A stretch of 64,000 nt of DNA. Source: a virus. The stretch spans positions 62,001 through 126,000 of the IMG/VR virus record IMGVR_UViG_3300022843_000009, one strand, 5' to 3'. The notes beneath the pieces are model-generated. The model had not been told where the DNA came from and did no database searches. It saw only the letters and a program-made list of their open reading frames with translations. This document shows positions 1 to 27,597 of this stretch, piece after piece. The translations under genes were made by a program, and so were the position numbers. Position 1 is the first letter of the stretch. Each line of letters opens with the position of its first letter.

Positions 1-39
1 GAAAATTTGAACTGTCAAACATTTTTCTATATCTCCCAT
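1..39 (-). CDS. Start of an unidentified protein (runs off the window)
   Basis: An ATG at 39-37 overlaps the stop codon of the upstream peptidase gene in a TAATG junction, and the frame stays open for 13 codons to the window edge (MGDIEKCLTVQIF). The overlap is the kind seen between many neighbouring genes here, which is the only support. Too little is visible to suggest a function. Confidence 0.4.
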   Translation of the reverse strand, partial: MGDIEKCLTVQIF

Positions 40-1121
40 TATGACATCTTGTATTTGAAGTCGTGGCCCGCTTTCAATTGAATTAAAAACTCGTACATTG
101 ATGCGATAACACTTTTTACATCTTCTTTATGTACAGTCTCAACTGTTGTGTGCATGTATTTTAGCGGGAAAGACATTAGAACAGATGCTGTTCCTTCACC
201 AGCATAAGCAATTGCGTCTGTATCTGTTCCAGTGTGGTTAGAAGACGCTGCTAACTGATACGGGATGGCGTTGCTGTCACAAACCTCTCGAACCATTTTA
301 AGAAGATTATTTTGAACCGCTGGAGCGATAGTCAACACACCGCCTTGCCCAGCCTCAAACAAGCCTTGTTTTGACGAGTTGTATGCTGGTGACGTGGTTT
401 CGTGACAAACATCCACTACGAACGCCACATCGGGCTCTATTCGCTTCGCAACCATACCTGCTCCACGCAAACCAATCTCCTCTTGTACGGCGTTCACCAC
501 ACAAAGCTTAAATGGTAATTCCACATTGTTCTCCTTCAAGAGTCTTGCGACTTCCGCTATTGCAAATCCGCCAATCTTGTTGTCGAGAGCTTTTGCGGTG
601 AAGTAATCTTTTCCGAGCCTCATGAAGTCCGCTTGGAATGTGATGATGGTTCCTACTTCGATTCCCATTTTCTCGGCATCCTTCTTATTTTTTGCTCCGA
701 TGTCCACAAAGATGCTTTCCAATGTCGATTCTTTCGCTCGCCCTTTTACATGAATTGCTGGATGACCGAACACTCCTTGAATTTTTCCTTTGGTTCCCCA
801 TACATCTACTCGCATAGATGGGGCTATTTGAGTATCGCTTCCTCCGTTGCGAATCACTTTAAGATAACCTCGGCTGTCAACTTGTTGAACATACCAAGCA
901 ATCTCGTCAGCATGGGCCTCAATCATTACTGTGTAATCGGAATCCATATCTCCCATTTCGGCTATGGCGCTTCCATATGTGTCCAGGTAAACATTATCCA
1001 CGTAATCTGAAATGTGTTTTACCCACACTTGCTGTCCACCCATCTGAACTTCAAACCCACTAGGCGAGCATGTGTTCAGGTATTCTTTTAAAAATTTCTT
1101 TTGGAGTTTTATTTTCGTCAT
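39..1121 (-). CDS. M42-family aminopeptidase
   Basis: A 360-residue M42 (glutamyl aminopeptidase/TET-type) metallopeptidase, expected to be a cytoplasmic di-metal enzyme that trims N-terminal residues from peptides. The family's metal and catalytic positions are visible: EAHADEIAW (first His/Asp), ALDNKIGG (bridging Asp), VQEEIGLRGA (catalytic and metal Glu), VVDVCHE (Asp) and YMHTTVETV (final His). Length is normal for the family. The start codon overlaps the mscL stop codon by 4 nt (ATGA), so the two genes are probably translationally coupled. Peptidases of this family are unusual in phages; a role in recycling peptides from host protein breakdown is a guess. Confidence 0.9.
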   Translation of the reverse strand: MTKIKLQKKFLKEYLNTCSPSGFEVQMGGQQVWVKHISDYVDNVYLDTYGSAIAEMGDMDSDYTVMIEAHADEIAWYVQQVDSRGYLKVIRNGGSDTQIAPSMRVDVWGTKGKIQGVFGHPAIHVKGRAKESTLESIFVDIGAKNKKDAEKMGIEVGTIITFQADFMRLGKDYFTAKALDNKIGGFAIAEVARLLKENNVELPFKLCVVNAVQEEIGLRGAGMVAKRIEPDVAFVVDVCHETTSPAYNSSKQGLFEAGQGGVLTIAPAVQNNLLKMVREVCDSNAIPYQLAASSNHTGTDTDAIAYAGEGTASVLMSFPLKYMHTTVETVHKEDVKSVIASMYEFLIQLKAGHDFKYKMS

Positions 1122-1567
1122 TTAGTAAGGTTATTGTTGAGCTCCTTTAAACCATCATCGATGGATTTGAGTAATTCTATATCTTTTGGAGTCTCCTCAG
1201 TCTTGTCGTCTGGGTCCTCTCGGCGAGCCTTATATAGGTTATATCCTTTTACTACAAAATACATTACCAAAGCTACAATTAAAAAGTCAATTGCAACCTC
1301 TATAAACTGTCCATAATTTATCGACACCGCTTCTTTTATGACGTCTCCATTTAGTTTCGTTTCATTCCTTAATGTTAATTGCATATCAGCAAAATTTGCA
1401 TAAGATGTAAACAAAGAGAAAGGAGGCATTATAATGTCTTTGACTAAAGAATTAATTAAGACACTGAATTTCATTCCGACTATGATTCCCACGACCATGT
1501 CTACGAAGTTCGCTTTGAGAGCAAACTTTTTAAATTCGGATACAAACTTTTTAACTGGGGCCATCAT
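1118..1567 (-). CDS. mscL: Large-conductance mechanosensitive channel MscL
   Basis: A 149-residue MscL homologue. The family layout is intact: a short N-terminal amphipathic helix, TM1 with the glycine-rich pore segment (FVDMVVGIIVGMKF), the signature DIIMPP after TM1, a periplasmic loop, TM2 (FIEVAIDFLIVALVMYF) and a charged C-terminal helix. MscL forms a homopentameric channel in the inner membrane that opens under membrane tension. The gene overlaps both neighbours by 4 nt and sits in an apparent operon with the M42 peptidase. In a phage it could alter the osmotic tolerance of the infected cell or assist lysis; neither role is shown by the sequence. Confidence 0.93.
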   Translation of the reverse strand: MMAPVKKFVSEFKKFALKANFVDMVVGIIVGMKFSVLINSLVKDIIMPPFSLFTSYANFADMQLTLRNETKLNGDVIKEAVSINYGQFIEVAIDFLIVALVMYFVVKGYNLYKARREDPDDKTEETPKDIELLKSIDDGLKELNNNLTK

Positions 1568-1911
1568 ACTGCGTATTCATCGCAGAAATCAAAAGTGAGT
1601 TCAAGCTCTGGGTCTTCCGCTGCTGCGTATTTTGCTTTGAACTGGTTTTCTTCGCAAAAATCAAGAAAGTTTTTGACCAGGTTTGCTGAATCAAACTCTT
1701 GGCCCTTGTCGAACAACCGTCGCACGATTGGGAACATCACCATTGCAGGATTAACTGTTATCGACTTCACCTGTTTAATCATTTTTTCATAGCCTGGAGA
1801 TAGAAGAAAATTCTTCATCGCCTCCATCTTGCTTGTGCATGCTACTTTTTTCGAATCATTGAGATGGTTAAGTAGTCCTGACTTCTCCCATAGCTCCATT
1901 ATTTTATTCAT
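1564..1911 (-). CDS. Hypothetical protein
   Basis: A 115-residue mixed helical protein with an acidic C-terminus (EDPELELTFDFCDEYAV). No family recognised. The stop codon overlaps the mscL start by 4 nt and the start overlaps the upstream zinc-finger gene by 8 nt, which makes it a genuine member of this packed operon. Confidence 0.7.
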   Translation of the reverse strand: MNKIMELWEKSGLLNHLNDSKKVACTSKMEAMKNFLLSPGYEKMIKQVKSITVNPAMVMFPIVRRLFDKGQEFDSANLVKNFLDFCEENQFKAKYAAAEDPELELTFDFCDEYAV

Positions 1912-2341
1912 TCCAAGGTGTTTTTTTACAAATTTCTATTACCTTCTTGCATCTATTTACAGAAAACATGCCTATGTGACACAATGCTTTGGGGATTCCC
2001 ATTTTCTTTCTAAGCCAACTGTAGGCTTCTCTTCTGTTCCAGTTCTTTCTCCTCTCGTAAGCAATGGGGTCGAAAGCCGCGTGGGCTTGCTTCCTCCAGT
2101 TGCGAAGCTCTCCTTTGGCAACACTGCCTAAGCTCTCCTTTGAGGTCTTATGGTGAACCCCAACATAAGCATCACAGGGCTCGCATAAATACATCATCCC
2201 ATAACTACGACCATACACAAGGGATGAATCCACGTATTTTGTTTCGCCTTTGCAGTAAGGACACTTCTTTCCTCGAAGTATTTCAAAGTCCGCCCCCAAA
2301 TGTTCGCATGCACTCTTTAATTCTGCATCATCTATTTCCAT
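1904..2341 (-). CDS. DUF3268-like zinc-finger protein
   Basis: A 145-residue protein resembling the DUF3268 zinc-finger-containing family. A CPYC pair near residue 27 and a CEPC pair near residue 53 would bind one zinc. The stretch between and after them (VYGRSYGMMYLCEPCDAYVG, then ELRNWRKQAHAAFDP and YSWLRKKMGI) matches my recollection of the family signature. The family occurs in phages and bacteria and its function is unknown; DNA or RNA contact is a guess from the basic C-terminal half. Confidence 0.75.
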   Translation of the reverse strand: MEIDDAELKSACEHLGADFEILRGKKCPYCKGETKYVDSSLVYGRSYGMMYLCEPCDAYVGVHHKTSKESLGSVAKGELRNWRKQAHAAFDPIAYERRKNWNRREAYSWLRKKMGIPKALCHIGMFSVNRCKKVIEICKKTPWNE

Positions 2342-2358: not shown

Positions 2359-2820
2359 CTATGACGGGTCGCGCACTTCCGACCAAACTTTACTATTTAA
2401 CCCTCTCTTGTATGTGGTCCCAAATCTGATTGGAGACGCCATGTTTGTTAATGCGATTTGCATCACAATCTTCGTCTCTTGAAATACTCGATACATTCGG
2501 AAATAATTCTCCTTGTACCAGGCTTTGTATTCCTCTAAATCCATTTTTGAAAACTCTTCCTGGGTCTTCTCTCCCATTTCTATTGCAATATCTTGGTCCC
2601 ACGGTTTATTTCCGAACGGACGCTTATCGTCTGTACAGAATATACCTTCGTAGCAAACGTCGTAGTCTGCTCCAAATGTGATATCTATTCTTGATGCTAA
2701 TTGGATGTGGTGGGGTTCGATTCTAAACTCCTGCGCATTTTCGAGCTCTGCACTAATAGAATTCTTTTGTGCGTCTAATGTTATAAGCTCGTCTTCTTTC
2801 CAAATTTCTCTAAACCACAT
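2359..2820 (-). CDS. Hypothetical protein
   Basis: A 153-residue soluble protein rich in aromatic and acidic residues, with no recognised domain. It heads the run of minus-strand genes down to the M42 peptidase. The DNA upstream carries a 16-bp element (2845-2860) that recurs upstream of a structural gene at 41353. Confidence 0.65.
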   Translation of the reverse strand: MWFREIWKEDELITLDAQKNSISAELENAQEFRIEPHHIQLASRIDITFGADYDVCYEGIFCTDDKRPFGNKPWDQDIAIEMGEKTQEEFSKMDLEEYKAWYKENYFRMYRVFQETKIVMQIALTNMASPIRFGTTYKRGLNSKVWSEVRDPS

Positions 2821-2872: not shown

Positions 2873-4222
2873 TCAGTCTTTTAACTTGGAAATCATTTCT
2901 CGTGCATCACGGTAGTTCATAATTGCTTTTCGATTATGCTTGTCTACGTTTATAATTTTAAGCATCACGCATACTTTGAGAAAATCTTTAATTGCTTCTG
3001 TAGTCATCTCTAAGCCTATTGACTCAACAGCTATCGTAAAATCACTAAACGTGTATAAATTCCCGCCTGGTATAACCTGTCCTTGGATGTAAAGAACACC
3101 CAAAAGTCTCATGTACATTTGAGACGTTTCGTCAAGAGAAGAAATATCAATCGCATCTACATTATTATTTATGTTTTCTAATACAATCAAATGTGAGTCT
3201 TCTGGGATATCCGTGTATACGGGCTCTTTCTTTTCTTCAGCTATCTCTTCTATCTTTAAAACGTCCGCTTTGGGAATGAAGTCTCCTGTAACGGTTTCTT
3301 TATAAACAATCTTATTAGTTCCTAAAGCAGGTTCGGGCTCAGTTGCTGGTCCAGGTTCTAGAAAAGGTTCGGGCTCAGTTGCTGGTCCAGGTGTTGGAAT
3401 CTTCTTTAAATCTTCTTCTTCTTTCCTAACGACCGTCATTTCAACGTTAAAGAAAAGTACGAGCATGATAGCAAATGGGTCAAATATTAAAACAAAAAAC
3501 CCAAAAAACCCTTTTGTTGCTGTATCCATCTCCACTCCAAGCATATCCGCAATCATTTTTAACGGAGCTGCTTCACCCTGAGAGAGTTCCCCGCTCATTA
3601 CAACGATGGAACTGTCGACCACTGCGATATTTTCTATCACTAATCCAATCTCATTATTTAGTGAGTCAATGTCGAAGTTAAGTAGAGATATCTCTGTATT
3701 TGTTTCTTGTAGAAGGTTTTTTGCTTCACGTGCACTTCTCCATGCTTGTCTATTTTGAAGTGAGTCCATCCTGTCCTCCTGCTGCTTTCTGAGGCTAGAA
3801 AGTCCGTCAGCTCTATTTTCTTTTCTGTTAATCTGGTCTTCGAATCGAACAACTTTTCCTTTAAGCGATTCTTTTTCTCTTTCTTTAAGTTGAATCTCTT
3901 GATTGCCTATTTGAAATTCAGCACTCGTCTCGGCATAGCCCCCAATTAGTTGGCCAAATATACCTATAGATGTTAAGGCCATTGCTACGATAATTCCAAA
4001 TATAGCTCCTGCTCTTTGCAAGATTCCAATTTCATTCCATCGCCTGTGAACAAAAGATGCTATAACCAATTTCCCAACCTCTAGCGCTGCTACTAAAAGT
4101 ATTGCTGCCGTTCCTGCTCCAGAGGCGAGTTTTCCCACACCTGTTACAGAGAAGAACGCAGCGCATCCTGCCATAAAAAGGGCTGTCAATGCAATTAGGT
4201 ATGCTCGTAATCGTCTTTTCAT
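2873..4222 (-). CDS. Membrane protein with central coiled coil
   Basis: A 449-residue protein. Hydrophobic segments lie at about residues 5-27, 33-58 and 70-95. A long charged coiled coil follows (about 100-215), then another hydrophobic segment near 235-262 (GFFGFFVLIFDPFAIMLVLF). Next comes a low-complexity Pro/Glu linker with two PGPATEPEP copies, then a soluble C-terminal domain. The N-terminal membrane block resembles an uncharacterised protein I recall from marine T4-like phages; this is memory, not a search. A cell-envelope role in infected cells is possible. A TAnnTTTG-type box lies 14 nt upstream of the start. Confidence 0.75.
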   Translation of the reverse strand: MKRRLRAYLIALTALFMAGCAAFFSVTGVGKLASGAGTAAILLVAALEVGKLVIASFVHRRWNEIGILQRAGAIFGIIVAMALTSIGIFGQLIGGYAETSAEFQIGNQEIQLKEREKESLKGKVVRFEDQINRKENRADGLSSLRKQQEDRMDSLQNRQAWRSAREAKNLLQETNTEISLLNFDIDSLNNEIGLVIENIAVVDSSIVVMSGELSQGEAAPLKMIADMLGVEMDTATKGFFGFFVLIFDPFAIMLVLFFNVEMTVVRKEEEDLKKIPTPGPATEPEPFLEPGPATEPEPALGTNKIVYKETVTGDFIPKADVLKIEEIAEEKKEPVYTDIPEDSHLIVLENINNNVDAIDISSLDETSQMYMRLLGVLYIQGQVIPGGNLYTFSDFTIAVESIGLEMTTEAIKDFLKVCVMLKIINVDKHNRKAIMNYRDAREMISKLKD

Positions 4223-4236: not shown

Positions 4237-4244
4237 CAAAATTA
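4237..4244 (-). promoter_or_regulatory. Candidate host-type promoter (-7 box)
   Basis: Sense sequence TAATTTTG fits the Bacteroidota -7 consensus TAnnTTTG and lies 14 nt upstream of the start codon at 4222. No convincing -33 element was seen at the usual distance. Confidence 0.4.
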
Positions 4245-4268
4245 TAGTTTAAAGCAAAGATATAATAA

Positions 4269-11716: not shown

Positions 11717-11992
11717 TTATAACCATGATTCTTCAATCATTTTTCTCCTCGCTTCTAAATCAAGAGGACTCCATAATTCAACTGTTTCTTCTTGAAAATC
11801 AACCTCTTCATCCTTTGCCCAAAACCATCGAACCTGACTCACATTCTCTACAGTGTTGTATAGAAAGTGCCCGTCCTCCTCCACGGAGCTTTTAATCAAA
11901 AGCTCCCCATTAGGGATGCAATTCCCATTTGAAAATATTTTAACCTCTTTAAGTCGATAATAAGCTACCTGTGTTTCAACACACTTACTCAC
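11717..11992 (-). CDS. Hypothetical protein
   Basis: A 91-residue, Trp- and Glu-rich small protein with no recognised family. Its start overlaps the sigma-factor stop by 8 nt, so it is likely co-transcribed and translationally coupled with it. A role tied to the sigma factor is possible but unsupported. Confidence 0.6.
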   Translation of the reverse strand: MSKCVETQVAYYRLKEVKIFSNGNCIPNGELLIKSSVEEDGHFLYNTVENVSQVRWFWAKDEEVDFQEETVELWSPLDLEARRKMIEESWL

Positions 11993-12866
11993 CGCTTCCT
12001 AGGTTTGTATTCAAAAACTCTTTTAGGGCAGAACTTTTTTCAAAAACCCTAAGCCTTCTAAGTGTGTCTTCTTTTATTTGTCTAACTCTCTCGTTGGTTA
12101 ATTCTAATCTCTCAGCGATGTCGCGAAGAGTCGTAGCCTCTTCATTGTTTAATCCGAAATACATGTTTAATATAACCTTTTCTCTTTCAGTTAAATTGTC
12201 AAACAACTCGTTTAACTCATCTTTCAATGCCTGGTGATTCATATCTTGTTCAAACCGTTGATAAGAGTCTCCAATTAAAAAGTCTTTTACCTCTGTTTGT
12301 GAGTCAGATTTTATCTGGTCATCAATAGAAACTTCGAAGTTTCCATTGATGTTAAAGCTTTTAATATCGCTTTCTGTAATTTCATCTATCTCGGCTAAGA
12401 TTTCTTCATCAGAAGGCTCTCGACCTAAACGTTGGTAAAGCTTTTCTTTTGTTTTTACAATCTTGTTGATGGAGTTGATTCGATTTACAGGGAGCCTGAT
12501 GTTCCCAGAGTGGTCGTTTACCGCTTTTATAAGTGCGTGGCGAATCCACCATACGGCGTAGGAAATAAACTTAAAACCCTTTGTCTCATCAAACCTGCTA
12601 ACAGCTTCCATAAGGCCGATATTACCCTCTGAAATTAAATCCTCCAGAGGAAGTCCGCTGTATAGATATTCTTTTGCCACAGAAATAACAAATCTCAAAT
12701 TAGTCTTTGTTAAGTCATGAAATGCTTTCTCGTCTCCAGCCTTAGCCTTGACAGCCAGTTTAACTTGGTCATCCCCACTAAGGACTTCTATCTTTTTAAT
12801 GTCTTTGTAATAGCTTTTTACGGAAACTGATTCCTTATAATAGCTACTTTCTCTTTCTTTTTGCAT
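11985..12866 (-). CDS. RNA polymerase sigma-70 factor, primary type
   Basis: A 293-residue sigma-70 protein without region 1.1, the size and layout of Bacteroidota RpoD. Region 1.2 is near residues 15-50. Region 2 is complete (TNLRFVISVAKEY, LISEGNIGLMEAVSRFD, GFKFISYAVWWIRHALIKAV). Region 3 covers about 125-200. Region 4 carries the helix-turn-helix TLRDIAERLELTNERVRQIK. The core- and -10-binding parts are very close to a housekeeping sigma rather than to T4 gp55. It should direct host polymerase to phage promoters, perhaps the TATTTAT elements before virion genes or host-type boxes. Confidence 0.93.
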   Translation of the reverse strand: MQKERESSYYKESVSVKSYYKDIKKIEVLSGDDQVKLAVKAKAGDEKAFHDLTKTNLRFVISVAKEYLYSGLPLEDLISEGNIGLMEAVSRFDETKGFKFISYAVWWIRHALIKAVNDHSGNIRLPVNRINSINKIVKTKEKLYQRLGREPSDEEILAEIDEITESDIKSFNINGNFEVSIDDQIKSDSQTEVKDFLIGDSYQRFEQDMNHQALKDELNELFDNLTEREKVILNMYFGLNNEEATTLRDIAERLELTNERVRQIKEDTLRRLRVFEKSSALKEFLNTNLGSGE

Positions 12867-12896
12867 CGCCGCGAAGTTTGGTAAACACTATAAATC

Positions 12897-13451
12897 TTAA
12901 TCGTTCCAATTAAGATTCGCAAAGAACTCTTTTAACTCTTCAAAGTCTTCTTTACTTGTTACATTCATTAGGCATTCCACAGCGCCTTCCTCTTTTTTGT
13001 CCATCCTCATCCCTTTGATGCGAACATTTAAATACCTCTTTTCCAACCCTCTCTGCCTATGCGAAACCAGGTCAAACTCAAGTTCCCCATGTTTCTCAGA
13101 ACTTAAACTGTAATAAGTTTCATCATAAGGCTTTGATTCAGCGGTGTCTGGAACGCTGTTAAATTGCTCCTCTGTTACTAACGATGGCTGAGACACAGGC
13201 TGTTGCTTATCGGCGACAATTGGTTCTTGAACAACTGGTTCTTGAACAGTTTGTGATTGAATAGTTTGTGATTGAATAGTTTCTCCCAAAGAAGGTAGTT
13301 GAACCTGAGGGGGAATTCTTGGTTTAATTCTGCGAGATGGCATACCTGTACCTTTAATTTTTTGTTTCTTCTTCAAAGGTAGCACGATTATAATCAGAAA
13401 ACAAATTATAATTATGTCAAATAGTCCTAGAATCTCTAATGTTTGTAACAT
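12897..13451 (-). CDS. Single-pass membrane protein with Pro/Gln-rich linker
   Basis: A 184-residue protein if it starts at 13451 (MLQTLEILG; an in-frame ATG at 13472 adds 7 residues). One hydrophobic segment at about 9-27, a basic flank, a Pro/Gln/Val linker with short repeats (TIQSQTIQSQTVQEPVVQEP), then a C-terminal soluble domain. The layout resembles membrane-tethered SPOR- or TonB-type proteins, but no such domain is recognisable. It overlaps the upstream HAD gene by 35 nt. Confidence 0.65.
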   Translation of the reverse strand: MLQTLEILGLFDIIIICFLIIIVLPLKKKQKIKGTGMPSRRIKPRIPPQVQLPSLGETIQSQTIQSQTVQEPVVQEPIVADKQQPVSQPSLVTEEQFNSVPDTAESKPYDETYYSLSSEKHGELEFDLVSHRQRGLEKRYLNVRIKGMRMDKKEEGAVECLMNVTSKEDFEELKEFFANLNWND

Positions 13452-14214
13452 GATGTCCAAAGAAATTAACATTCGGGAAAACTTCCCTAACCTTGTCTTC
13501 AGTAGTTTTTAACCAATTGGCTTTGTCCTCATAAAAATGAACTTCGTCATATTGACCTTCTTCTATCTCTTTCAAGATGACAGTGGATTTCCACTCTGGG
13601 ATTCCGATTTTTCCTGCTCCTGGAAAACAATGTAAACCTCTGTTTGGATATTCTAAATTAGCCCATCGCAGTGTAATGTCTATTGCTTTTTTTAATTTTT
13701 CATCTCGGCCCGTAACAATCATCTTGTTTTGAGCGGCATTATAAGCAGAAATGAGTTTTTCGTTTACTTTTGACCCAATAGTTGAATCGTCCTTATGAAA
13801 GCCTTTAATTTCTTTTACGGTAAGATACCCTTGTTTTTCAGTGAAAGCCCCAGGAAAGTCTCTCATTTCACTCCGTCGGACACCGTGGCGTTGAGTAAAC
13901 TCTTTCGCTGGAGTTGAATCAACCACGTCATCTATTTTATCCTGTATAATACCCATCTGGGCGCCAGGAAGAGGGCGTCCGTTTCTAGCGTCAACGACAA
14001 TAATAAAATCACCTTTCACTTGAAAAATAACATCCTTACCAAAAATCATATTGAATATATGCTTGGATTTTCGGAGTTGAGACTTATTATCAGCTCCGTC
14101 TCCAGAAACTCCAAGGTCTATGACCCCTTTTTCGTCTGAGTCCATATACTCTGCGAATGTAGGTGTGTATGTCAGAGTGTCGTCGTAATCAAACACATCT
14201 AGTCTTTTGTTCAT
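13417..14214 (-). CDS. HAD-superfamily protein (RNA-repair-type HAD)
   Basis: A 265-residue protein with HAD motifs. Motif I VFDYDDTLT carries both catalytic Asp residues, motif II is MIVTGRDEK, a conserved Lys lies in the region near 205-215, and motif IV is VHFYEDKANW. The spacing and GRD motif resemble the HAD domain of the 'Swiss Army Knife' RNA-repair family. It should be a Mg2+-dependent phosphatase or phosphotransferase; a role in nucleic-acid end repair is plausible. It is divergent from the gene at 14252. Confidence 0.75.
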   Translation of the reverse strand: MNKRLDVFDYDDTLTYTPTFAEYMDSDEKGVIDLGVSGDGADNKSQLRKSKHIFNMIFGKDVIFQVKGDFIIVVDARNGRPLPGAQMGIIQDKIDDVVDSTPAKEFTQRHGVRRSEMRDFPGAFTEKQGYLTVKEIKGFHKDDSTIGSKVNEKLISAYNAAQNKMIVTGRDEKLKKAIDITLRWANLEYPNRGLHCFPGAGKIGIPEWKSTVILKEIEEGQYDEVHFYEDKANWLKTTEDKVREVFPNVNFFGHHVTNIRDSRTI

Positions 14215-14251
14215 GCGTAACTTTTTTTACTCATCTTCGTACATATATAAG

Positions 14252-14668
14252 ATGAAGCTATTTTTAATAAAATTTAAGAGTATAGACAACGAAAAAGAGG
14301 TCTATGATAAGCTTTTTGAGCTAGCTGACGGCAGGTCTTTTATACCGTTGGACTCTACTACTTTTATATTATTGGCTAATAGAACTAAAAAAACTGTCCT
14401 TCATACCTTAAAGTTTGAATTAGAGCCAGGATTTTTATTAGTTGACATCTCCGAAAATAACATAGAAGATTTCTTTGTCGATAACAGCTTTGACCAAACT
14501 CATCTCCATAATTTCATTGAAGAGTATCATAATGAGCGTGACAAATGTAGTTCAAATTCAAGCAAGACTCTATCTGAGCTTGATATTATTTTAGATAAAA
14601 TCAGTGCCCATGGAATTGACGAGCTGACATGGAGAGAGAGAAAGCGCTTAGAAGAATTGTCTAATTAA
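14252..14668 (+). CDS. Hypothetical protein with SHOCT-like tail
   Basis: A 138-residue protein from the ATG at 14252 (a longer frame from 14207 would overlap the divergent HAD gene). The N-terminal half looks alpha/beta (MKLFLIKFKSIDNEKE). The tail LDKISAHGIDELTWRERKR resembles the short helical module at the end of many Bacteroidota proteins (LDKI..G...LT..E). Function unknown. Its 3' end overlaps the convergent gene by 4 nt. Confidence 0.65.
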   Translation: MKLFLIKFKSIDNEKEVYDKLFELADGRSFIPLDSTTFILLANRTKKTVLHTLKFELEPGFLLVDISENNIEDFFVDNSFDQTHLHNFIEEYHNERDKCSSNSSKTLSELDIILDKISAHGIDELTWRERKRLEELSN

Positions 14669-15069
14669 ACCTTTAACTTCATGTCTGGGGTGTGAAAGTT
14701 TTTCTTTCGCATGATTGTTTGATTAACTAATTCATACTGGCCCTTCCCAGTTTTGTTTAATGCGAATGGGATATTGATATTGGAATTTAAATCAATAATA
14801 ACCGCTTCTGTTCCTTTTTTAAAATTTGGAATCTTCTGCCCATATTTTCTATAAGTCTTTGTGAATAAATCTACTAGCTCTTGAGATTCAATCTCTTTAC
14901 CATTCCTTGGGTCGTTGAGTCTATCAACGAAGTGGTGGGTGAACTCTATGTCTACCCCAACATCTCTGAATAAGTCATCAGCATAATCCTCTACTTGGTT
15001 TAAGTCTTTCTGAGTCATAAACTCCATTAAGTAACCTCTAACCGTGTGTCTCAAATGTTCTAAGTCCAT
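14665..15069 (-). CDS. Conserved phage protein, unknown function
   Basis: A 134-residue basic protein starting with an amphipathic helix (LRHTVRGYLMEFM). The core contains HHFVDRLNDPRNGK and the C-terminus NQTIMRKKNFHTPDMKLKV. I recall similar sequences from other T4-like phages, but not a function. It shares a TAATG stop/start with the preceding gene. Confidence 0.65.
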   Translation of the reverse strand: MDLEHLRHTVRGYLMEFMTQKDLNQVEDYADDLFRDVGVDIEFTHHFVDRLNDPRNGKEIESQELVDLFTKTYRKYGQKIPNFKKGTEAVIIDLNSNINIPFALNKTGKGQYELVNQTIMRKKNFHTPDMKLKV

Positions 15070-15371
15070 TAGTAAAGTGTTTTGTATTTGAGTATCTTTT
15101 GCATCGCTACAGCGTCCAGCACAAGGCCTTCTCCATTTTGCAGTGTAAGCGTGTATTGTTTGCTGATTGCATCCTCTAAAGTCTCAAAACTTAACCTGGT
15201 TCCATCGATGGAAAATCCTCTTTCTGAATATACCACTGCAAACGGTGATTCTGTTTGAGAATCAAACTGAACAACTGTCTCAGGTTTCCTAGCTTGCTGC
15301 TGTGGGACTTGTGGAGGCATTTGAGAAAGCGCCTCTTTCACCAACTTTAATATATGCGTTGCTTTGTCCAT
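15069..15371 (-). CDS. Hypothetical protein with N-terminal amphipathic helix
   Basis: A 100-residue protein: N-terminal helix THILKLVKEALSQ, a Pro/Gln linker, then a small beta-rich domain. First gene of a two-gene unit behind a late-type element, so probably expressed late and possibly packaged. No family recognised. Confidence 0.65.
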   Translation of the reverse strand: MDKATHILKLVKEALSQMPPQVPQQQARKPETVVQFDSQTESPFAVVYSERGFSIDGTRLSFETLEDAISKQYTLTLQNGEGLVLDAVAMQKILKYKTLY

Positions 15372-16266: not shown

Positions 16267-16917
16267 TTATGCTCCACAGCCAAAGCAATCAAAATCGCTT
16301 TCTTCTGGTCTAGCAGGTAGGTCATCGTAATCAGCTGTTGGTTCGTCTAATTGTTCTTCTTGCGCTTTTTTTGTCACAGTAAACTGAATAGCATCTGCAG
16401 CAGGCTTTGTCCGTAAGTAATACATTCCAGTCTTAAGTCCTTTGTTCCATCCATAGAAGTGCATTGAGGTTAATTTTTGAAAATCTGGTTCGTCAATAAA
16501 CACATTCATAGACTGACTTTGACAAATAAATGCACCTCTATCTGCTGCCATGTCAAGAATATTTTTCTGCTTAATCTCCCAAACAGTTTTGTAAACATCC
16601 TGGATATCTTCTGGAATCTCATCGATTCCTTGGACAGAGCCTCTGTTAGCGATGATTTTATTTCTAAGATTAAAGTCCCAGATTTTCAATTCGATTAATC
16701 TTTCAACCAAGTGAGGGTTCACCAATACAAAGTTTCCAGAAAGAACTTTACGCTCGTAAATGTTTGAAGTAAAAGGCTCAAAACATTCGTTGTTTCCTAG
16801 GATTTGTGCTGTGTTATGACTTACGCATCCGTTCCCCATTATGTAATGCTCCTCTCCTGGTACCGCTAAATCCCATGTAGGCTTTACTTTGCTTGGTGTT
16901 ATTTTTTTTACTTTCAT
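16267..16917 (-). CDS. nrdA: Split-intein C-half fused to ribonucleotide reductase alpha C-terminal part
   Basis: A 216-residue protein. Residues 1-35 are an intein C-terminal fragment ([20 protein letters not shown] then HN). Residues 36-216 are the C-terminal part of class I NrdA, starting [17 protein letters not shown], with the radical-transfer Tyr pair ([12 protein letters not shown]) and the C-terminal redox pair CFGC. Trans-splicing with the product of 18240-20456 would rebuild a 799-residue NrdA. Its start overlaps the endonuclease stop by 4 nt. Alone it lacks the active-site cysteines, so it cannot reduce ribonucleotides. Confidence 0.93.
16813..16917 (-). other. NrdA split intein, C-fragment (35 aa)
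   Basis: Begins at the ATG at 16917 and ends in His-Asn (codons CAT AAC), directly before a Thr codon that would be the +1 nucleophile. The short size and VSHN end fit a typical intein C-fragment. Confidence 0.88.
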
Positions 16918-18182
16918 TTTATATTGTTTTTAAGAAGAAAGTCTTCTACTTTCTCGTTGTTTACCTCTTTAGTTGAGCTGCTCCAAAGCTCTAAATATTT
17001 ATACCCTTTCTCTAAAGCTAAGTCCTTCTTTCTCTGGTCTATGTTGTGTATTTCATCTGCAGACATTTTAACTCTATTAATACCTGAGCCTTTTAATCTC
17101 CAAGATTCCCAATTTTTCCACTCCTCCTTACTTAGCCTTTCTGGGTTTGGATGATATCTTTCGCCATGATACTCAATTATGATTTTTCGCTCAGGAATAG
17201 AAAAATCATAAAACCTCATGCAAGCGGAGTATTCGTCGTAAATACCTAACTCCTTACTCTCATCTATACCCACAAGTACTTCGAGTTCGCTTGAAAACTT
17301 ATCAAACAGCGGTTGAAAAAACACAAGACTCTCTTTAGAAGCTCTTCCGAAATGTACTTGTTTCTTTAAAAAAATCTGCTCCACTTTGTTAATCGATTCT
17401 TTCTTTGACAAGCCTTTTGATATCCAATAATCCACTGAAGAGGTGTTTAAATTTTCTGTATGAAACTTTTTTCTCATCTCTTCCGCATCCTCCTTGCTAT
17501 ATCCTTTATTAATCCAGTGTTTAGAAGTGAATACGCTTGTTTCTTTTTTTGCATCAACGTACTTATCCCACATATCTTTACCTTTATCTTCTCCGTGCTG
17601 TTGAATATACTTTTCTTTCGTGTGCTTTGAAGAATCTTGAAACTCTTTAAACAAGCTCAACCCTTTCTTTTCTCCATGTCTTTCTATAAAACCTTTCTCA
17701 GACGTTGCTTTGGAAGATTTGAAATTATCAATCTCAACCAGTGCTTCTTTCTCTGAAAAGCCCTTCTCAACCCAGTACTCCACTTTATAAGGAGTAACCC
17801 TGCTGCTGTAGGCATTTTCTTTTTTAATATTACCTAGCTCTAAACCCCATTTTAAATGGTAAAACTTATCTGAGTTAGAATCTGTCTTATTGGTTAATCT
17901 ATACTTTACATATTTTTTAAACCTTTCTCCATCAAAACTCTCAGACAACTCTTTTATGTTATCCCTTACTTTATGGCCAGGCATTTCTTTGCTTTGAATT
18001 ACTTCAAAAGCAGAAATAAAGTGACTCACATCTAAGGACTCATGCATTTTAATTAATGCATACCCTGCCTTGATGTTGTCAAATATTAATTTGTCCATTT
18101 CAATGTTTGAGTTTCTTCTGAAAAAATCAGATACCCCCTTTAAAGTTCTTATCTCTGTATTATTAATTTTAAACCTATCCAT
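16914..18182 (-). CDS. Free-standing Vsr/DUF559-like homing endonuclease inside split nrdA
   Basis: A 422-residue protein lying exactly between the two nrdA pieces. The C-terminal third has a Vsr-like nuclease pattern: [20 protein letters not shown], then a Lys/Asp helix and [10 protein letters not shown]. The middle holds alternating short modules that probably bind DNA: three of the type W-x2-K-G-[FYL]-S-x2-[ED] and two of the type [FY]-I-x2-H-G-E-x-K-G. The arrangement matches the 'fractured gene' homing endonucleases described from marine metagenomes. It should cut intein-less nrdA alleles and promote spread of the insert. A 32-bp palindrome with a late-type element lies directly upstream. 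Confidence 0.82.
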
Positions 18183-18213
18183 TCTGTGCTATTTATTAAT
18201 AAATAGCACAGAA
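18182..18213. repeat. 32-bp perfect palindrome
   Basis: TTCTGTGCTATTTATT followed by its exact complement, with no spacer. It overlaps the first base of the endonuclease start codon and contains the late-type element in both directions. It could be a late promoter, a hairpin that limits read-through from nrdA, or a protein-binding site. Confidence 0.9.
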
Positions 18214-18239
18214 CTTTAGGCTGTCATGCCAGACGCAAC

Positions 18240-20456
18240 TTAGTTTTCAATTAGTTCTTCACATTTAATAGTTAGAATATCATCGTCTTCTTTTAACTCA
18301 TTTACATAAACCCACTCATCTCCTGTAGTTCGACTCACAAGAAATCTATGATTTCCCGTAGCCTCCATTGTAGACCCATCTTCCATTTCTATATGGTAGA
18401 CCTGCTTATGCCCATTGTAGTACATCTTATCAGTTTCAACCTCTCCATTCATCGTGTCAACAATAACTGACTCTTTAAGAGTAATCCAATGTGGAGCATC
18501 AACCGACTCAATAGTTTTCCAATCAATTCCACTTTGTTCTAAAATAGATTTGAAATTATTCACTTTTCCTTGGCTAAAGAACTCAGTGTCAATTACTTGA
18601 CAACTTGCTGTAGGCATTGGAGCCAACAGCAGAGAGTTTCTAGCTCCAAACTCTTTCACTTTGTCCTTTAGACCATTCCAGTCCAAATTTAGATTCGGTG
18701 AGAGCTGAGACTCTTCCCAGTAATCAAACTGGAAAATGCCTTTGCTTAGGTCTGAGCCTGGGAACGTTTCATATGCTCCATCTTTCATAGCTTCCTCCAT
18801 AGAGGCCTCCATAGAAGCGAAGTAAATCATTTCGAAGATTTCCCTATTAAGTTGCTTTGCTACCTCCGAATCGAATGCCACGTGCATCTTAGCGAACACA
18901 TCGGCTAAACCTTGAACACCAATGCCAATTGGTCTGTGACGTAGGTTTGATTTCTTAGCCTCCACAACTGGGTAGAAATTTCGGTCGATAACCTTGTTAA
19001 GGTTTTTTGTGACCACCTTTGTAACCTCATATAGCTTATCAAAATCAAACTCGTACACTTTCTTGCTTGGGGTCTTAGCTGTGTTTGTTTGCTTCAAATA
19101 CATTGGCAACGCAATAGATGCAAGATTACAAACAGCTACTTCATCTGGAGAAGTGTACTCCATAATTTCTGTACAGAGATTAGAGGACTTGATTGTTCCC
19201 AAGTGCTTTTGATTAGATTTATGGTTAGCGGCATCCTTGTAAAGCATGTATGGAGTTCCTGTTTCAATTTGAGATTCAAGAATCTTGAACCAAATGTCTT
19301 GAGCAGGGATTGTCTCACGCCCTTTGCCTTGCCTCTCATATTTGGTGTACAACTTCTCAAAGTCATCTCCATAGCAGTCTGAAAGCCCAGGGCACTCGTT
19401 AGGGTCCATTAAAGTCCAGCTTGCGCCTTCATCAACTCGTTTCATAAACAAGTCTGGAATCCACATCGCGTAAAACAAATCTCTCGCACGCATCTCTTCT
19501 TTTCCTGTGTTCTTTTTCAAATTAAGAAACTCGCGTATGTCTGCATGCCAAGGCTCTAAGTAGATTGCAAAAGAACCTTTTCGTTTTCCTCCACCCTGGT
19601 CAACATAACGAGCTGTGTCGTTAAAGTTTCTAAGCATTGGAACAATTCCATTAGAGGTTCCGTTGGTTCCTTTAATATAAGAGCCTTTGGCTCTTATGTT
19701 GTGAATGCTCAACCCTATCCCTCCAGCTGATTGTGAAATCAATGCACACTGCTTTAAAGTGTCATATATTCCATCAATAGAATCATCTTTCATCGTTAAC
19801 AGGAAACAGGAAGACATTTGCGGTTTTGGAGTCCCTGCATTAAACAATGTAGGTGTTGCATGAGTAAAATACTTCATGGATAATAAATCATAAGTCTCTA
19901 TAGCTTTGTCAATATCATCCATGTGAATACCTACTGCAACGCGCATAAAAAGATGTTGAGGCCTTTCTGCTGGTGTTCCATGAGTCTTAAGAAGATACGA
20001 GCGTTTCATTGTCATGAATCCAAAATAGTCAAGCTGAAAATCTCGGTCTTGAATGATTGCCCCATTAAGTCTTGCACTGTTTTTTTTCACCACCGCATAG
20101 GCTTCCTCGCTAATAAGCGGTGCTGGTGCTTTTGTGATTGGGTCGACATACTCGTAGAGGTCTTTTATTGTCTGAGAAAACAATTTCTTTGTTTCCTTGT
20201 GAAGTGAAGTAATGGCTATTCTGGCTGCCAACTTTGAGTAATCTGGATGTGTTGTAACAAGAACGGCTGCCTTCTGAGCTGCTAATTCATCTAATTGCGT
20301 TGTTGATACACCGTCGAATATTCCTTGAATAACTTTTTGGGCTACTTCTGAATAATTAACTGCCTCCGATAAATCATAGCATTGCTTTTTAATTCTAGCA
20401 GCTATCTTATCAAACCTAACTTCTTCCTTAGAGCCGTTGCGTTTAGTAACTTGCAT
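18240..20456 (-). CDS. nrdA: Ribonucleotide reductase alpha N-terminal part fused to split-intein N-half
   Basis: A 738-residue protein. Residues 1-618 are class Ia NrdA: an ATP-cone at the N-terminus ([20 protein letters not shown]), redox cysteines in SSCFLLTM and VAVCNLASI, and the active-site NLCTEI. The enzyme part stops at [12 protein letters not shown], and residues 619-738 are an intein N-fragment. The remainder of NrdA is encoded at 16267-16917. NrdA reduces ribonucleoside diphosphates with NrdB (next gene upstream) to supply dNTPs. The catalytic Cys set is here, while the radical-transfer Tyr pair is on the other piece, so splicing is needed for function. Confidence 0.93.
18243..18602 (-). 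other. NrdA split intein, N-fragment (120 aa)
   Basis: Starts with Cys (TGT at 18602-18600) directly after the NrdA sequence PMPTAS and runs to the stop. Block B is recognisable as [14 protein letters not shown]. Block A (CQVIDTEF) is followed by an unusual insertion of about 40 residues before the usual strand pair. The insertion splits the conserved PMPTAS-TAQILG loop of NrdA. Confidence 0.85.
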
Positions 20457-21698: not shown

Positions 21699-23834
21699 TT
21701 ATTCCTCACCAAAGGAATCATAGTCTTCAAAATCTTCTGGGTCCCAGTCGTTCGTGTCCAAACCGAGCTCGCCTTCTAGTTGTTGACTTTCTTTTTCGTT
21801 TCTCGCGGTCGATTCTGAGTCACTTCTCTCTTCTTCTTGCTGTTGAAAAGCTGACCAATCATTCTCAGAAACTTTCGTCTCAGGGTTTGACATAGACTCG
21901 TGGTGAACATACTCTTTATCGAACGGAGTGTAAATTTCCTTTGCATCAACACTTGAGTCCTCATAACTGTGGTCTAGCTTTTCTTCATGATACCTAGCTG
22001 TTTCAATATTGTAAATCAAATTTGCCGTACCTGGGCGACCAATGAGTTTCTGCTTCTTAATTTTTTGAGACACAAACTGTACAAGCCCAGGATGTCGGAA
22101 CGTGTCGAAGTGTGCTTCATTTCCTTGGGTGCGTCTAGCTCTCAGTCTTGAGAGGTAATATGGCTGATACGTTGCAAGCAAGTTATCTACTTTATTGCTC
22201 CACATTGCTCCACCAGCCAAGTTGTACTGGTCAGGAAGCTGATGGTTTCCTGCGTTCATCAAATCGTCGGTCTGATTGCGGTCAGTAACTTTCTCAATGT
22301 TTCCTTTAGGGTGACAAACGATAATTTTGTATATGTTGTGGTCCAGAGCGAATCTTTTTTCCTTGCTCAGGTACACTCCGATATATTGGTCGTCTCTACC
22401 TCCTGCTGATGCCCAGTCATTATCCAACTGGTTAAATGGGTCAGTCATGCACCCCTTGATGTCATGCTTGATAATTAGTTCTTCAAACCTGTCATTAATG
22501 TATCGTGGAGTCGGAGTGTCGTCCTTTGGGTACACAAAGTAAAAGTGCTCCATCATAAAATCAATTCCACGGTTGTACTCCGCAAGTGTCATTTGATTAG
22601 GGTGATAATGCTCTGTGGACTGCCCTACATACATATGTATTAAGTCTTTATAGAAGTCAATAGGAGGGTTTTGCTCTGGTGAGAAAATGCCCCATTTTGT
22701 TCCTTCTTTAAAGCTTTTAATAAGCATTAGTTGGAGCATTAGTGTGGTTTTACCGTGATTAGGTATTCCGTGCATAATGTTCACCTCTCCTAGCTTCCAC
22801 CTCCAGTGTGGGTCAATAGAATTAAAGTAAGTGGTCTCTCCTTTCGCATCTCCTTTGATGTAGGACTGAACCATCGCCTCCCTGATATCTTTCAAGTATA
22901 TTACGTCACGCGCTGGCGATTCTGGGTCAAAGTCGCTCATCTCACCTTCTTGGGTGAAAAAAGAGTTTTCGTGCTGATTAGCATACGTAATATAAACCCT
23001 CTTTACAATCTCTCTAAAGTCTCTTGAGTCAACAGAAGATGCCCTGGGTTGGTAATCCTCGATTAGGTTTTCGATGACAAAATCCATCTTTAACCCAAAT
23101 CTATTACAGGCTGAAGCTATGTAAACTAAAAATTTATGCTTGTTTCCGTCTCCATAATCATTTGTCCTGTCTGCCCACGCTTTTACTCGACGATAAACTT
23201 CACGTCGGTCTGAAAGTTTTGTTCCGTCTTTAGAGAACTCAGTGACCACTGGTTTCTCTTTAATCATGATATCAAACACCTTACTATCTGGATTCACAAA
23301 TAGATTTGGGTCATAGCTCTCATAGCATAACCTCGAAATATCTTTCAAATCATCCCAACCTTCAAAGTCGTCCATCTTAAAGTACATTCGAAGTGCTTCG
23401 AAATACTTACTATAGTCGCTTATTACTGCTGGGATTTTTATCAGCACTTTGATACCATCTCCACTTGGAGAGCGGAAATAGGCGTATGTATACGAATCCT
23501 TCTCTAATGCCCCTGTCCACTTCTCGTAGTGTTCTATGTGGTCAAAATCAAGGCAAATTAATCCTGCAGATTCCTGGATTGCATCGTTCGCTCTCCATTT
23601 AAACTTTCCCGAAAAAGAGTACGCTGGCAGATTCTTTTTAAGAGTGCTTCGCTGCTCTTTAAATTCCTCAGTGATTGGAAGCGCTCTTAGACCTTCAATC
23701 CACTCTTTTGAATGACCAGACTTTATTCTCTCCAATGCTTTCGTTACATCAATGTGATGTGGGTTTTTCGAGTCGAAAGTGTTTTTGTAAATTGTTATAG
23801 TTCTTGTCCCTACTTCATGATTCTTCTTGTCCAT
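21699..23834 (-). CDS. Primase-helicase (BT4734/VirE-N-like plus DnaB-type helicase)
   Basis: About 711 residues if the start is 23834 (MDKKNHEVGTRTITIYKN, A-rich leader); in-frame ATGs at 23864 and 23903 are alternatives. The N-terminal part has the BT4734/VirE-N pattern common in Bacteroidota (LPITEEFKEQRSTLKKNLPA, LICLDFDH, YAYFRSPSGDGIKVLIKI), which is related to archaeo-eukaryotic-type primases; LDFDH carries the likely metal-binding Asp pair. The C-terminal half is a RecA-fold replicative helicase with Walker A GIPNHGKTT and an Asp-containing B motif (GCMTDPFNQL). It should lay primers and unwind the fork for the phage polymerase. The last 60 residues are acidic and disordered. Confidence 0.85.
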   Translation of the reverse strand: MDKKNHEVGTRTITIYKNTFDSKNPHHIDVTKALERIKSGHSKEWIEGLRALPITEEFKEQRSTLKKNLPAYSFSGKFKWRANDAIQESAGLICLDFDHIEHYEKWTGALEKDSYTYAYFRSPSGDGIKVLIKIPAVISDYSKYFEALRMYFKMDDFEGWDDLKDISRLCYESYDPNLFVNPDSKVFDIMIKEKPVVTEFSKDGTKLSDRREVYRRVKAWADRTNDYGDGNKHKFLVYIASACNRFGLKMDFVIENLIEDYQPRASSVDSRDFREIVKRVYITYANQHENSFFTQEGEMSDFDPESPARDVIYLKDIREAMVQSYIKGDAKGETTYFNSIDPHWRWKLGEVNIMHGIPNHGKTTLMLQLMLIKSFKEGTKWGIFSPEQNPPIDFYKDLIHMYVGQSTEHYHPNQMTLAEYNRGIDFMMEHFYFVYPKDDTPTPRYINDRFEELIIKHDIKGCMTDPFNQLDNDWASAGGRDDQYIGVYLSKEKRFALDHNIYKIIVCHPKGNIEKVTDRNQTDDLMNAGNHQLPDQYNLAGGAMWSNKVDNLLATYQPYYLSRLRARRTQGNEAHFDTFRHPGLVQFVSQKIKKQKLIGRPGTANLIYNIETARYHEEKLDHSYEDSSVDAKEIYTPFDKEYVHHESMSNPETKVSENDWSAFQQQEEERSDSESTARNEKESQQLEGELGLDTNDWDPEDFEDYDSFGEE

Positions 23835-24516
23835 CTGTATCTTTTCGTTGCGTTGCTGTTCCATAATAGTTCCCGATTGTCCATTTTCGAGAACTGTGCC
23901 CATTTTGAAGCCTGTGATTTGGGTTCTGATTTAGATACTCTATAAACTTATCACCGTAAAGTGTGCGCGGTCGAATGAAGTTTGTCATCTTATCGTTGTC
24001 TTGCCACTCTAGCGTCTTTATTTCGTTTACTATTTTAAAGTCTTTTACTGTTTTCCCGTCTTTCAGCCATCTCTCTACAAACTCAAATGTCTCCAAACTG
24101 TCTGTGGGGAAGCTTCTTTTTGCAAACAAATTTAAGTGCTCTACAATTTCTTTCACCACTGGATAAGTTGGTGATTTAAGAAAGTCTGCAGACTTTATTT
24201 TGCTATTCTTGTGCTCTTGGAGCATGCGCTTGCTGAAGTAGGCTCCTGTTGATGAATCTTGAAGCAATACGCCTTTGTCAAAGAGCTCTCCAAATGCGTT
24301 GTTGAATACGTTTTCATTTGTTACCCTCAACATTTTCTGTATATCAAACCTTGACATCACTTTGTTTCGAAAAACCATGTAACCATATGGGTCTCCTCTA
24401 TGCATATGACATAGAAGGTCAATCCACATCCCTTTCGCCGTTAAAGAGCAATGCTTTAACTTAGCATCATCCAACCAGTCTTCTGGGTAAAATGTAAATC
24501 CTTGTCTGTCTATCAT
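23815..24516 (-). CDS. Replication-initiator-like protein (phage C-terminal conserved domain)
   Basis: A 233-residue protein. The N-terminus FTFYPEDWLDDAKLKHCSLT looks like the winged-helix part of phage replication organisers. The C-terminal part (VKEIVEHLNLFAKRSF, later KMTNFIRPRTLYGDKFIEYL) matches the Phg_2220_C-type domain. Such proteins bind the origin or load the helicase. It sits directly upstream of the primase-helicase, overlapping it, and its start overlaps the exonuclease stop by 4 nt, consistent with a replisome operon. Confidence 0.75.
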   Translation of the reverse strand: MIDRQGFTFYPEDWLDDAKLKHCSLTAKGMWIDLLCHMHRGDPYGYMVFRNKVMSRFDIQKMLRVTNENVFNNAFGELFDKGVLLQDSSTGAYFSKRMLQEHKNSKIKSADFLKSPTYPVVKEIVEHLNLFAKRSFPTDSLETFEFVERWLKDGKTVKDFKIVNEIKTLEWQDNDKMTNFIRPRTLYGDKFIEYLNQNPNHRLQNGHSSRKWTIGNYYGTATQRKDTDGQEES

Positions 24517-25682: not shown

Positions 25683-26819
25683 CTAGTCCAAGCTAACATG
25701 GTCCCAATCGTTATCATATTCAAGACTCCACCCGTCTTTTGTCGACGCTTTGTAATCGTCAATTGCTTTCTTTTCGTCCATAATGAAGCCGTGGTCTGTG
25801 CAGAGAATTTTTCCCCTAGCAGATACGTTATTTACGTGATTTTTAACGAGTCGAATGGCGCTTCGAATTGCAAAGGATACTTTTATTCCATCTTTTGTAG
25901 CTTCTACTTTAGATGACCTTGATTGAACTCCACCCATTTGTATAACAAATGTTGATGCTAACCAAATACCTTCTCCTCCGTATGGTGCCAAAGATGACAT
26001 CGTTGCTGGTGGTGTTGGTGGCTTAGTGTAAGCGTGATTTACAAAGAAGATAGAGTTTGTGTAAGGATAATCATCTCTTCTTGAACTGTTTATCTTTTTG
26101 CAGATGTGTCGTTTTATTCTCTGGTGAATTACTCTTGCTGTAGACATCATTCCACCACTACCTTTTCCTGCGTCAACAGCCTCACGCTCAGCGTTAGACT
26201 GTGCTTGGCCGATAGAATCCCAGATAAACACGATGTCCATTGGGAATTCTCCATTCTCTTGCATTTTGATATACCTATCAACAATGTCACAACCTTCCTC
26301 AATAGTATCTACATCATTATGGATGTGACAATAGTTCTTGTCGGTGATTAGCCCCATAATCTCAGCTCTCTCTATGGAGAACTTGTTCTCGGTGATAATC
26401 AACACAGGGAATATTCCTTGTTTTTGAGCAAACGTGCCCAATTCGACCGCCATTGTTGTTTTACCGACATCTGAGTGCCCGTAAACCATCGATGCGTGAC
26501 CCATTGGCAATCCAGGCTGCCTTAGCGTCTCTTTGAATGCAGTGGACATGTTAATCCATTCCTGCGGTTTCATTTTTACTTGTTTGAAATCAATTTTGTC
26601 TGTAATTGATTCCATTTTAGCGAATTTTTTAGATATTTCCATCTTTTTTTTATCCATTCGCTTTTTAAACTTTATCTGTTCAGTTAAAAGACCAACCATA
26701 TGTTCGTTGTTCTCTTTTTTCGAAAATTCTAAAGCCGATTCCAGCTCAATAAGTGTCATCTTATCGAGCCCGTAGTCCTTAGGGTCATTTGATTTTATTT
26801 CTTCCGCTTTTCTTGCCAT
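25683..26819 (-). CDS. uvsX: RecA/UvsX-type recombinase
   Basis: A 378-residue RecA-fold recombinase. Residues 1-90 are a charged helical N-terminus. Walker A is GHSDVGKTT (114-122), Walker B is IVFIWDSIG, and a GKGSGGMMSTARVIHQRI segment follows as the likely DNA-binding loop. The VNHAYTKP stretch corresponds to the conserved polar loop of RecA/UvsX. It should form filaments on single-stranded DNA and catalyse strand exchange, working with SSB. It is a single-gene unit with its own terminator and tandem late-type elements 81-118 nt upstream. Confidence 0.88.
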   Translation of the reverse strand: MARKAEEIKSNDPKDYGLDKMTLIELESALEFSKKENNEHMVGLLTEQIKFKKRMDKKKMEISKKFAKMESITDKIDFKQVKMKPQEWINMSTAFKETLRQPGLPMGHASMVYGHSDVGKTTMAVELGTFAQKQGIFPVLIITENKFSIERAEIMGLITDKNYCHIHNDVDTIEEGCDIVDRYIKMQENGEFPMDIVFIWDSIGQAQSNAEREAVDAGKGSGGMMSTARVIHQRIKRHICKKINSSRRDDYPYTNSIFFVNHAYTKPPTPPATMSSLAPYGGEGIWLASTFVIQMGGVQSRSSKVEATKDGIKVSFAIRSAIRLVKNHVNNVSARGKILCTDHGFIMDEKKAIDDYKASTKDGWSLEYDNDWDHVSLD

Positions 26820-26900
26820 TGCTACTTTTATTGCTGTTAATTACTGCCTTGGTTCCAAAGCTACATGCTGGGTTGACCTAGTTATAGCAGTCGTTTTTTT

Positions 26901-26937
26901 CTATAAATAAGCGATAAAAAACACCTATCAATAAGCG
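26901..26937 (-). promoter_or_regulatory. Tandem late-type elements
   Basis: Sense CGCTTATTTATAG (26913-26901) and CGCTTATTGATAG (26937-26925), two near-identical copies 11 nt apart, upstream of the recombinase gene. The distance to the start codon is longer than for the other elements. Confidence 0.4.
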
Positions 26938-26965
26938 TTTATATTGCTAAATAAATCCTTCGTGC

Positions 26966-27220
26966 TTAATCGTGCTCTACACTGATTCTTATCGTTAGTA
27001 CGCCTTCTAGCCCACTTTCGTGAATAAACTCTAGCCCTACTAGCATGCCTTCTTTTGTAAGAAGCTCTGCCCCAACTCCATGACCAAACTCCGCACATCT
27101 GTCTATAAACTCGTAAAGAATAAGCTGTCTCGTTTCTTCTATGACTTGCTCAAAAGCGTATTTTTGAACTACGTGCTGAAAACACAGACTAAGAGCAGTC
27201 TTTATTTGCTCTTTTGTCAT
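26966..27220 (-). CDS. Hypothetical protein
   Basis: An 84-residue protein with a helical N-terminal half (KALSLCFQHVV-type pattern) and a beta C-terminus (VLTIRISVEHD). Start overlaps the upstream zinc-ribbon stop by 4 nt, so the two are coupled. No family recognised. Confidence 0.6.
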   Translation of the reverse strand: MTKEQIKTALSLCFQHVVQKYAFEQVIEETRQLILYEFIDRCAEFGHGVGAELLTKEGMLVGLEFIHESGLEGVLTIRISVEHD

Positions 27221-27597
27221 CGTCTGTTATTCTGTGTGTCATCGGATTGAGGGACCCTCCAGTCATACACTGGCCATCCATCTGTTGTTTTTAATGGGCT
27301 TCCATCTGGGTTTTTTTTAGTTCTCAAAAAAACCACATCAGATTTCTTTTGCTGTCCAAAGTTTACTCTGGCTTTACAATCTTTACACGTGATGTGTGTG
27401 TACTGCAATTCATCCTCTTTAGTGATATGAGAACTAAGCGCAAGGTGGTCTCCCCCACAATTTCCACATTTATACACGTCAGGAAATGAGAACATTTTAG
27501 CTCCCTCGACAATTTCGAACATAGTGTCTCCATTAACTATGAAAGCATGCATTTCTCTTCCTATTTTTTTCTTAATTATTCGCCCATATTTGGCCAT
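27217..27597 (-). CDS. Zinc-ribbon protein
   Basis: A 126-residue basic protein with two Cys pairs, KCGNCGG near residue 44 and TCKDCKA near 70, forming a probable zinc ribbon. A flexible tail ends DDTQNNRR. Likely nucleic-acid or protein binding. No named family recognised. Confidence 0.65.
   Translation of the reverse strand: MAKYGRIIKKKIGREMHAFIVNGDTMFEIVEGAKMFSFPDVYKCGNCGGDHLALSSHITKEDELQYTHITCKDCKARVNFGQQKKSDVVFLRTKKNPDGSPLKTTDGWPVYDWRVPQSDDTQNNRR

Follow-up and report, generated by a model that had tools for sequence, protein, structure and literature searches.

Bacterial MscL, as known from E. coli and M. tuberculosis (PF01741), is the closest described counterpart of the protein considered here, which is encoded in a 64,000-nucleotide stretch of viral DNA (hereafter the window). 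They agree in length, topology and fold; the hydrophobic gate, the packing glycines and the C-terminal helix are likewise common to both. The window copy differs in being phage-borne, in sharing no more than about 48% identity with the closest cellular MscLs, and in carrying the substitutions G14A, A20V, A27M, A28K and K31V (residue positions are given in E. coli MscL numbering).

Carriage of MscL by phages is already known. Lacticaseibacillus phage R23.1 carries an MscL gene (PMC10219966), as do Bacillota-like prophages. These phages resemble the window phage in carrying MscL, but they are temperate, their MscL is cargo of the lysogeny module and it belongs to another branch of the family, whereas the window gene is part of an operon of a large phage. 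In two IMG/VR prophages (L026 and L028), MscL has repressor or lipoprotein genes on one side and the integrase on the other, and in L026 it lies beside an Abi_2 gene. In a Bacillota-like prophage (L046), MscL is located in the lysogeny module near the integrase, with a frame that looks broken. Estuarine Caudoviricetes vOTUs also carry MscL, with an abundance increasing with salinity (PMC13288924, 2026); as far as considered here, that study is an abundance survey in which gene context, phylogeny and residue analysis were not found. Finally, Tetraselmis virus 1 and Cafeteria roenbergensis virus contain MscL-like ORFs with no assigned function (PMC6163359). These are virus-encoded too, but they belong to algal and protist viruses, are of about 101 amino acids and are very divergent. 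No mention of MscL was found in the jumbo-phage papers that were searched, and no functional test in the papers found on viral MscL genes. The present case adds a natural variant of TM1 and an operon context that large Bacteroidota-type phages have partly in common.

Genomic context of the phage mscL gene

The window corresponds to bases 62,001–126,000 of a 141,051-base IMG/VR virus record (G000), in which mscL is found at 63.1 kb. This record is that of a contractile-tailed phage, with genes for a tail sheath, a baseplate hub, RNR, a helicase, a split DNA polymerase and a sigma factor; it also carries Clp ATPases, a class II tRNA synthetase and 15 tRNAs. The tail sheath, baseplate hub, RNR, split polymerase, sigma factor and tRNA genes are spread over both sides of mscL, which argues that mscL is not a carry-over of host DNA. 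The RNR is nearest to that of Tenacibaculum phage pT24 (58%). Moreover, the density per base of the motif TAnnTTTG, a Bacteroidota-type −7 box, is about 2.5 times higher in intergenic than in intragenic parts of the window. These two features point weakly to a Bacteroidota host. The bacteria infected by this phage are probably marine Bacteroidota. The genes at the mscL end of the window form a compact string on the minus strand (window coordinates unless stated otherwise):

4237–4262, minus strand: a TAnnTTTG element at 4237 and a second one at 4255, upstream of the gene at 2873–4222
2873–4222, minus strand: predicted membrane protein of 449 aa with about five hydrophobic segments, upstream in the mscL string
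2359–2820, minus strand: ORF of 153 aa with no assigned function, member of the mscL string
1904–2341, minus strand: DUF3268 zinc-finger protein (phrog_1934), 145 aa, overlapping the 115-aa ORF by 8 nt
1564–1911, minus strand: ORF of 115 aa, directly upstream of mscL, overlapping the mscL start by 4 nt
1118–1567, minus strand: mscL, 149 aa, intact frame from ATG to TGA
39–1121, minus strand: M42-family aminopeptidase, 360 aa (PF05343, E = 2e-73), its start codon overlapping the mscL stop by 4 nt
record 61,605–62,039, just beyond the window, minus strand: protein "Y", 144 aa, one-base overlap with the M42 gene

On the minus strand, the order is thus 449 aa, 153 aa, DUF3268, 115 aa, MscL, M42, Y. 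The short overlaps suggest translational coupling, and the pair of TAnnTTTG elements is a weak candidate for the promoter of the string. The 449-aa protein is 32% identical to the product of a gene near M42 in the 735-kb phage LR756501. Family searches matched no known family for the 115-aa ORF. The same was true of Y, the only homologue of which was found in a 110-kb contig (see below) and the structure model of which is of low confidence (pLDDT 45).

Identity and predicted fold of the window MscL

The product of mscL matches Pfam PF01741 with 113.4 bits (E = 1.1e-32; cut-off 27.4 bits) over the entire profile (1–123 of 123), and NCBIfam TIGR00220 (mscL) with 92.4 bits, above the cut-off of 71 bits. 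A PHROG family is also matched. When compared with PDB sequences, the protein matches MscL chains (28oa, E = 4e-24). The AlphaFold2 model has a pLDDT of 82 and its elements follow one another as in MscL; structure comparison of this model with the PDB returns MscL as the top three matches (probability 1.00, E about 2–3e-3). Two transmembrane helices, an S1 helix, a periplasmic loop and a C-terminal helix are all found in the model:

residues 4–53 of the product: S1 helix and TM1, as one helix
residues 63–84: periplasmic beta loop
residues 86–117: TM2
residues 128–148: C-terminal helix

Judged from these profile matches and from the predicted fold, positions 1118–1567 encode a genuine MscL, with a match far beyond chance. 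The preliminary description of this DNA, which had proposed a complete MscL gene in a phage, is therefore borne out by the ORF, the Pfam, NCBIfam and PDB matches, the fold and the location in a phage.

Residues of TM1 and gating

The same description held that all structural signatures of MscL are intact. This holds for the fold elements, the hydrophobic gate and the packing glycines: M24, I28, G27 and G31 of the window protein occupy E. coli positions 19, 23, G22 and G26, respectively, and M at position 19 and I at position 23 are frequent among cellular MscLs. F10, N15, D18, G22, G26, F29, P43, G76, F85, K97 and N100 are also retained. As a general statement, it is nevertheless too strong. 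The window protein was compared with 110 cellular MscLs, of which 80 were obtained by a pattern-based scan and 30 were the top family matches; both sets are biased to typical sequences. G14 and A20, each found in all 110 of these sequences, are replaced by A and V. Position 28 is A in 105 of them and S in the other 5, and is K in the window protein; A27M and K31V occur in none of the 110. F93Y is found in one of the 110, and V16F is a further change in TM1 of the window protein. The MscLs of the two closest viral relatives (L015 and L016, see below) retain G14, A20 and A27.

According to published work (PMC5578686), the pore lock of MscL comprises V16, L19, A20, G22, V23 and G26, and G14 serves as a hinge in the model given there. 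The window sequence lacks several near-invariant TM1 residues that are typical of the family (G14, A20, a small residue at each of positions 27 and 28, and K31), which weakens the claim of an unchanged channel. It does not weaken membership of the MscL family, since the curated cut-offs do not rest on these TM1 residues. As five TM1 substitutions are absent from the cellular set, gating may be retuned; the unusual residues may alter or impair gating or the opening threshold. Such naturally occurring changes at TM1 positions that are invariant elsewhere are also ready-made probes of MscL gating.

Viral relatives, selection and origin

A single-sequence search with the window MscL yielded no viral relative. 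In profile searches that included IMG/VR, the close viral MscL relatives were only two, L015, in a 73-kb contig (G001), and L016, in a 110-kb contig (G002). The window MscL is 43% identical to L015 and 41% to L016, and these two are 67% identical to each other. Both contigs contain large tRNA sets. Since no close relative of the window MscL was found, dN/dS could be considered only for the L015/L016 pair, in which dN is about 0.25 and dS is saturated or at least 1.15. The MscLs of this pair are thus under purifying selection in phages.

In the 110-kb contig, MscL overlaps the preceding ORF by one base and the homologue of Y directly follows it (32%, E = 5e-13), whereas an M42 gene (47%) is located 10–11 kb from MscL. 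The MscL-Y neighbourhood is therefore preserved in two divergent phages, M42 having been inserted or moved. M42 was looked for in the 73-kb contig and was not found. These observations qualify the earlier proposal that mscL belongs to an operon with an M42 peptidase and small proteins: the tight packing, the 4-nt overlaps with the M42 and 115-aa genes and the presence of both MscL and M42 in a related contig speak for it, but the adjacency of MscL and M42 is not conserved. The surroundings of MscL in L015 and L016 are rich in NAD/ADP-ribose genes (NAMPT, a NUDIX protein, KptA, ADP-ribosylglycohydrolase, NADAR and a macro domain).

The M42 peptidase has relatives of its own in very large phages. 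In the 635-kb phage LR745206, one gene is 60% identical to the window copy, and further homologues occur in 636-, 462- and 735-kb phages; a single-sequence search with it found no IMG/VR relative. In the M42 tree, the copies of the window, of the 110-kb contig and of the 635-kb and 462-kb phages form one group (SH-aLRT 100). A single viral origin of these phage sequences is likely rather than demonstrated, because the cellular sequences in the tree come only from Flavobacteriaceae and a single Ignavibacteria genome, and because several of its branches are long.

As for the origin of MscL, an 88-row tree places the window protein in a 16-row set of MscLs that are mostly from marine Bacteroidota (SH-aLRT 97) and nests L015 and L016 within those of Flavobacteriaceae. 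Two of these Flavobacteriaceae copies (L054 and L055) are chromosomal and lie beside gyrase/topoisomerase genes (gene names assigned by eye). In a smaller tree, built with care, L015 and L016 again group with Flavobacteriaceae (bootstrap 100), but the window row, the branch of which has a length of 1.9, takes no firm position; across trees, this branch measures 1.2–1.9 changes per site. A single clade for the three phage MscLs, on which the choice between one acquisition and two depends, was not rejected by the AU test (p = 0.134) and gained no support either; this result carries a long-branch risk. Being phage-encoded and placed among Bacteroidota MscLs, mscL has the features of a phage auxiliary gene (moron).

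Possible roles of the phage channel

The explanation that we favour, and to which we give roughly even chances, is that a large contractile-tailed phage acquired MscL, retains it in the same operon as a peptidase and would use it to protect the infected cell as an osmotic safety valve. The gene would be expressed during infection, and in the inner membrane of the host its product would form a homopentameric, tension-gated and non-selective pore. Turgor would rise through solute import driven by the phage, through the breakdown of peptides and through osmotic changes in the surrounding water; the pore would open near lytic tension and release small solutes, and the infected cell would survive these rises until the phage's own lysis genes act. 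At record positions 11,735–15,111 (L002:11735-15111), the phage carries an ABC importer operon of the taurine/nitrate/sulfonate type, consisting of an ATPase, a permease and a substrate-binding protein fused to an OmpA domain; its homologues are strong in the 110-kb contig and weaker in the 73-kb contig. Importer and peptidase could together raise the internal solute content, which fits a release valve without proving it. If the channel works, large phages would control the turgor of their hosts by means of a mechanosensitive protein that is among the best understood, and existing MscL assays could be used to ask how early bursting of an infected cell is avoided.

MscL is found in 87 of 101 Flavobacteriaceae genomes, many of which have two. 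As most of these genomes have the gene, it is plausible that the phage MscL acts as an extra channel beside the host's own. By the same count of candidate hosts, the phage copy may be redundant, which would count against the valve. The five TM1 substitutions at strongly conserved positions, among them those at the G14 hinge and at A20 of the pore lock, could impair or retune gating and would count against it as well.

It may also be imagined, although this is unlikely, that the channel helps lysis. Opening easily or late, it would collapse ion gradients, leak solutes and trigger or speed up lysis. A20V, G14A, V16F, A28K and K31V, located at the pore lock or hinge, could lower the opening threshold, and gain-of-function MscL mutants are known in the same part of TM1 (PMC10244533, PMC5578686). 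However, mscL sits in an operon with a peptidase and small genes, an SSB gene is nearby, and no holin or endolysin family was matched among the ten proteins scanned at the mscL end of the window. Furthermore, the changes at positions 16–26 remain hydrophobic, unlike those polar mutations of the MscL gate that cause gain of function.

Slightly more unlikely is a fallback channel, which would work by the valve mechanism but would complement the host instead of adding to it, some hosts such as streamlined marine Flavobacteriaceae being without MscL. Among the 14 Flavobacteriaceae genomes with no MscL match, 11 are of 2.2 Mb or smaller; as the genomes lacking MscL are mostly small, the phage copy could be the sole MscL in some hosts. 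Against this, the small genomes may be incomplete assemblies and most Flavobacteriaceae do possess MscL.

It appears improbable that mscL is a cargo gene, neutral or in decay, which was captured from a host, is under relaxed constraint and no longer has channel function. Its long branch and the several changes at near-invariant positions would agree with such a fate, but the frame is full-length and intact within a tight overlapping operon, gate and fold are kept, and MscL is retained under purifying selection in the two other phage contigs.

In a more speculative and at least equally improbable reading, MscL would have been retuned (G14A, A20V, V16F and a charge shifted from position 31 to 28) to open at a tension unlike that of the host channel. 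With the ABC importer and the peptidase, it would serve as a dedicated turgor-control module timing infection or lysis.

Lastly, the idea that mscL is host DNA brought in by contamination or by a misjoined contig, which the preliminary description had named as fatal to its proposal, is scarcely tenable: many MscL matches in the "phages" collection do lie on chromosomal or unverified records with host-like DNA (for example L007 and L010–L012), but here phage genes flank mscL on both sides across more than 60 kb, the adjoining M42 is nearest to a huge-phage M42 and, a few genes further upstream, another gene also has its homologue in a huge phage, so that contamination was rejected. Most MscL matches in that collection were set aside as host-like DNA. 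In L007 (CAKLQH020000002, "Acinetobacter phage MD-2021a"), the surroundings of mscL are those of an ordinary bacterial chromosome (typA, rsmC, mutM and others), and this mscL is therefore a host gene.

Other features of the phage record

Outside the window, at record positions 26,550–33,692 (L003:6550-13692), the phage encodes a type I CRISPR-Cas system. Its array has at least 27 repeats with a 66-nt period and a repeat near GTTGTGATTCCCTTGCAGAATGAGATGATAAACAGG, and is followed by genes for a Cas6-like protein, a 293-aa protein without assignment, a Cas7fv-like protein and Cas3. Two further loci are located in the window:

47288–54582, minus strand: DNA polymerase III-like gene split into three pieces, which are separated by homing-endonuclease-like ORFs and have intein-like ends
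16914–20456, minus strand: RNR large subunit, the end of which matches phrog_16259, and next ORF, matching phrog_22677

The polymerase gene resembles one that has been fractured and carries split inteins, and phrog_16259 and phrog_22677 are also found at its broken ends. Finally, tRNAs with the anticodons TTA (reading UAA) and CTA (reading UAG) are predicted at L004:4381-4453 (record 44,381–44,453 of the window phage) and L141:3790-3863 (record 23,790–23,863 of the 110-kb contig); these are possible suppressor tRNAs.
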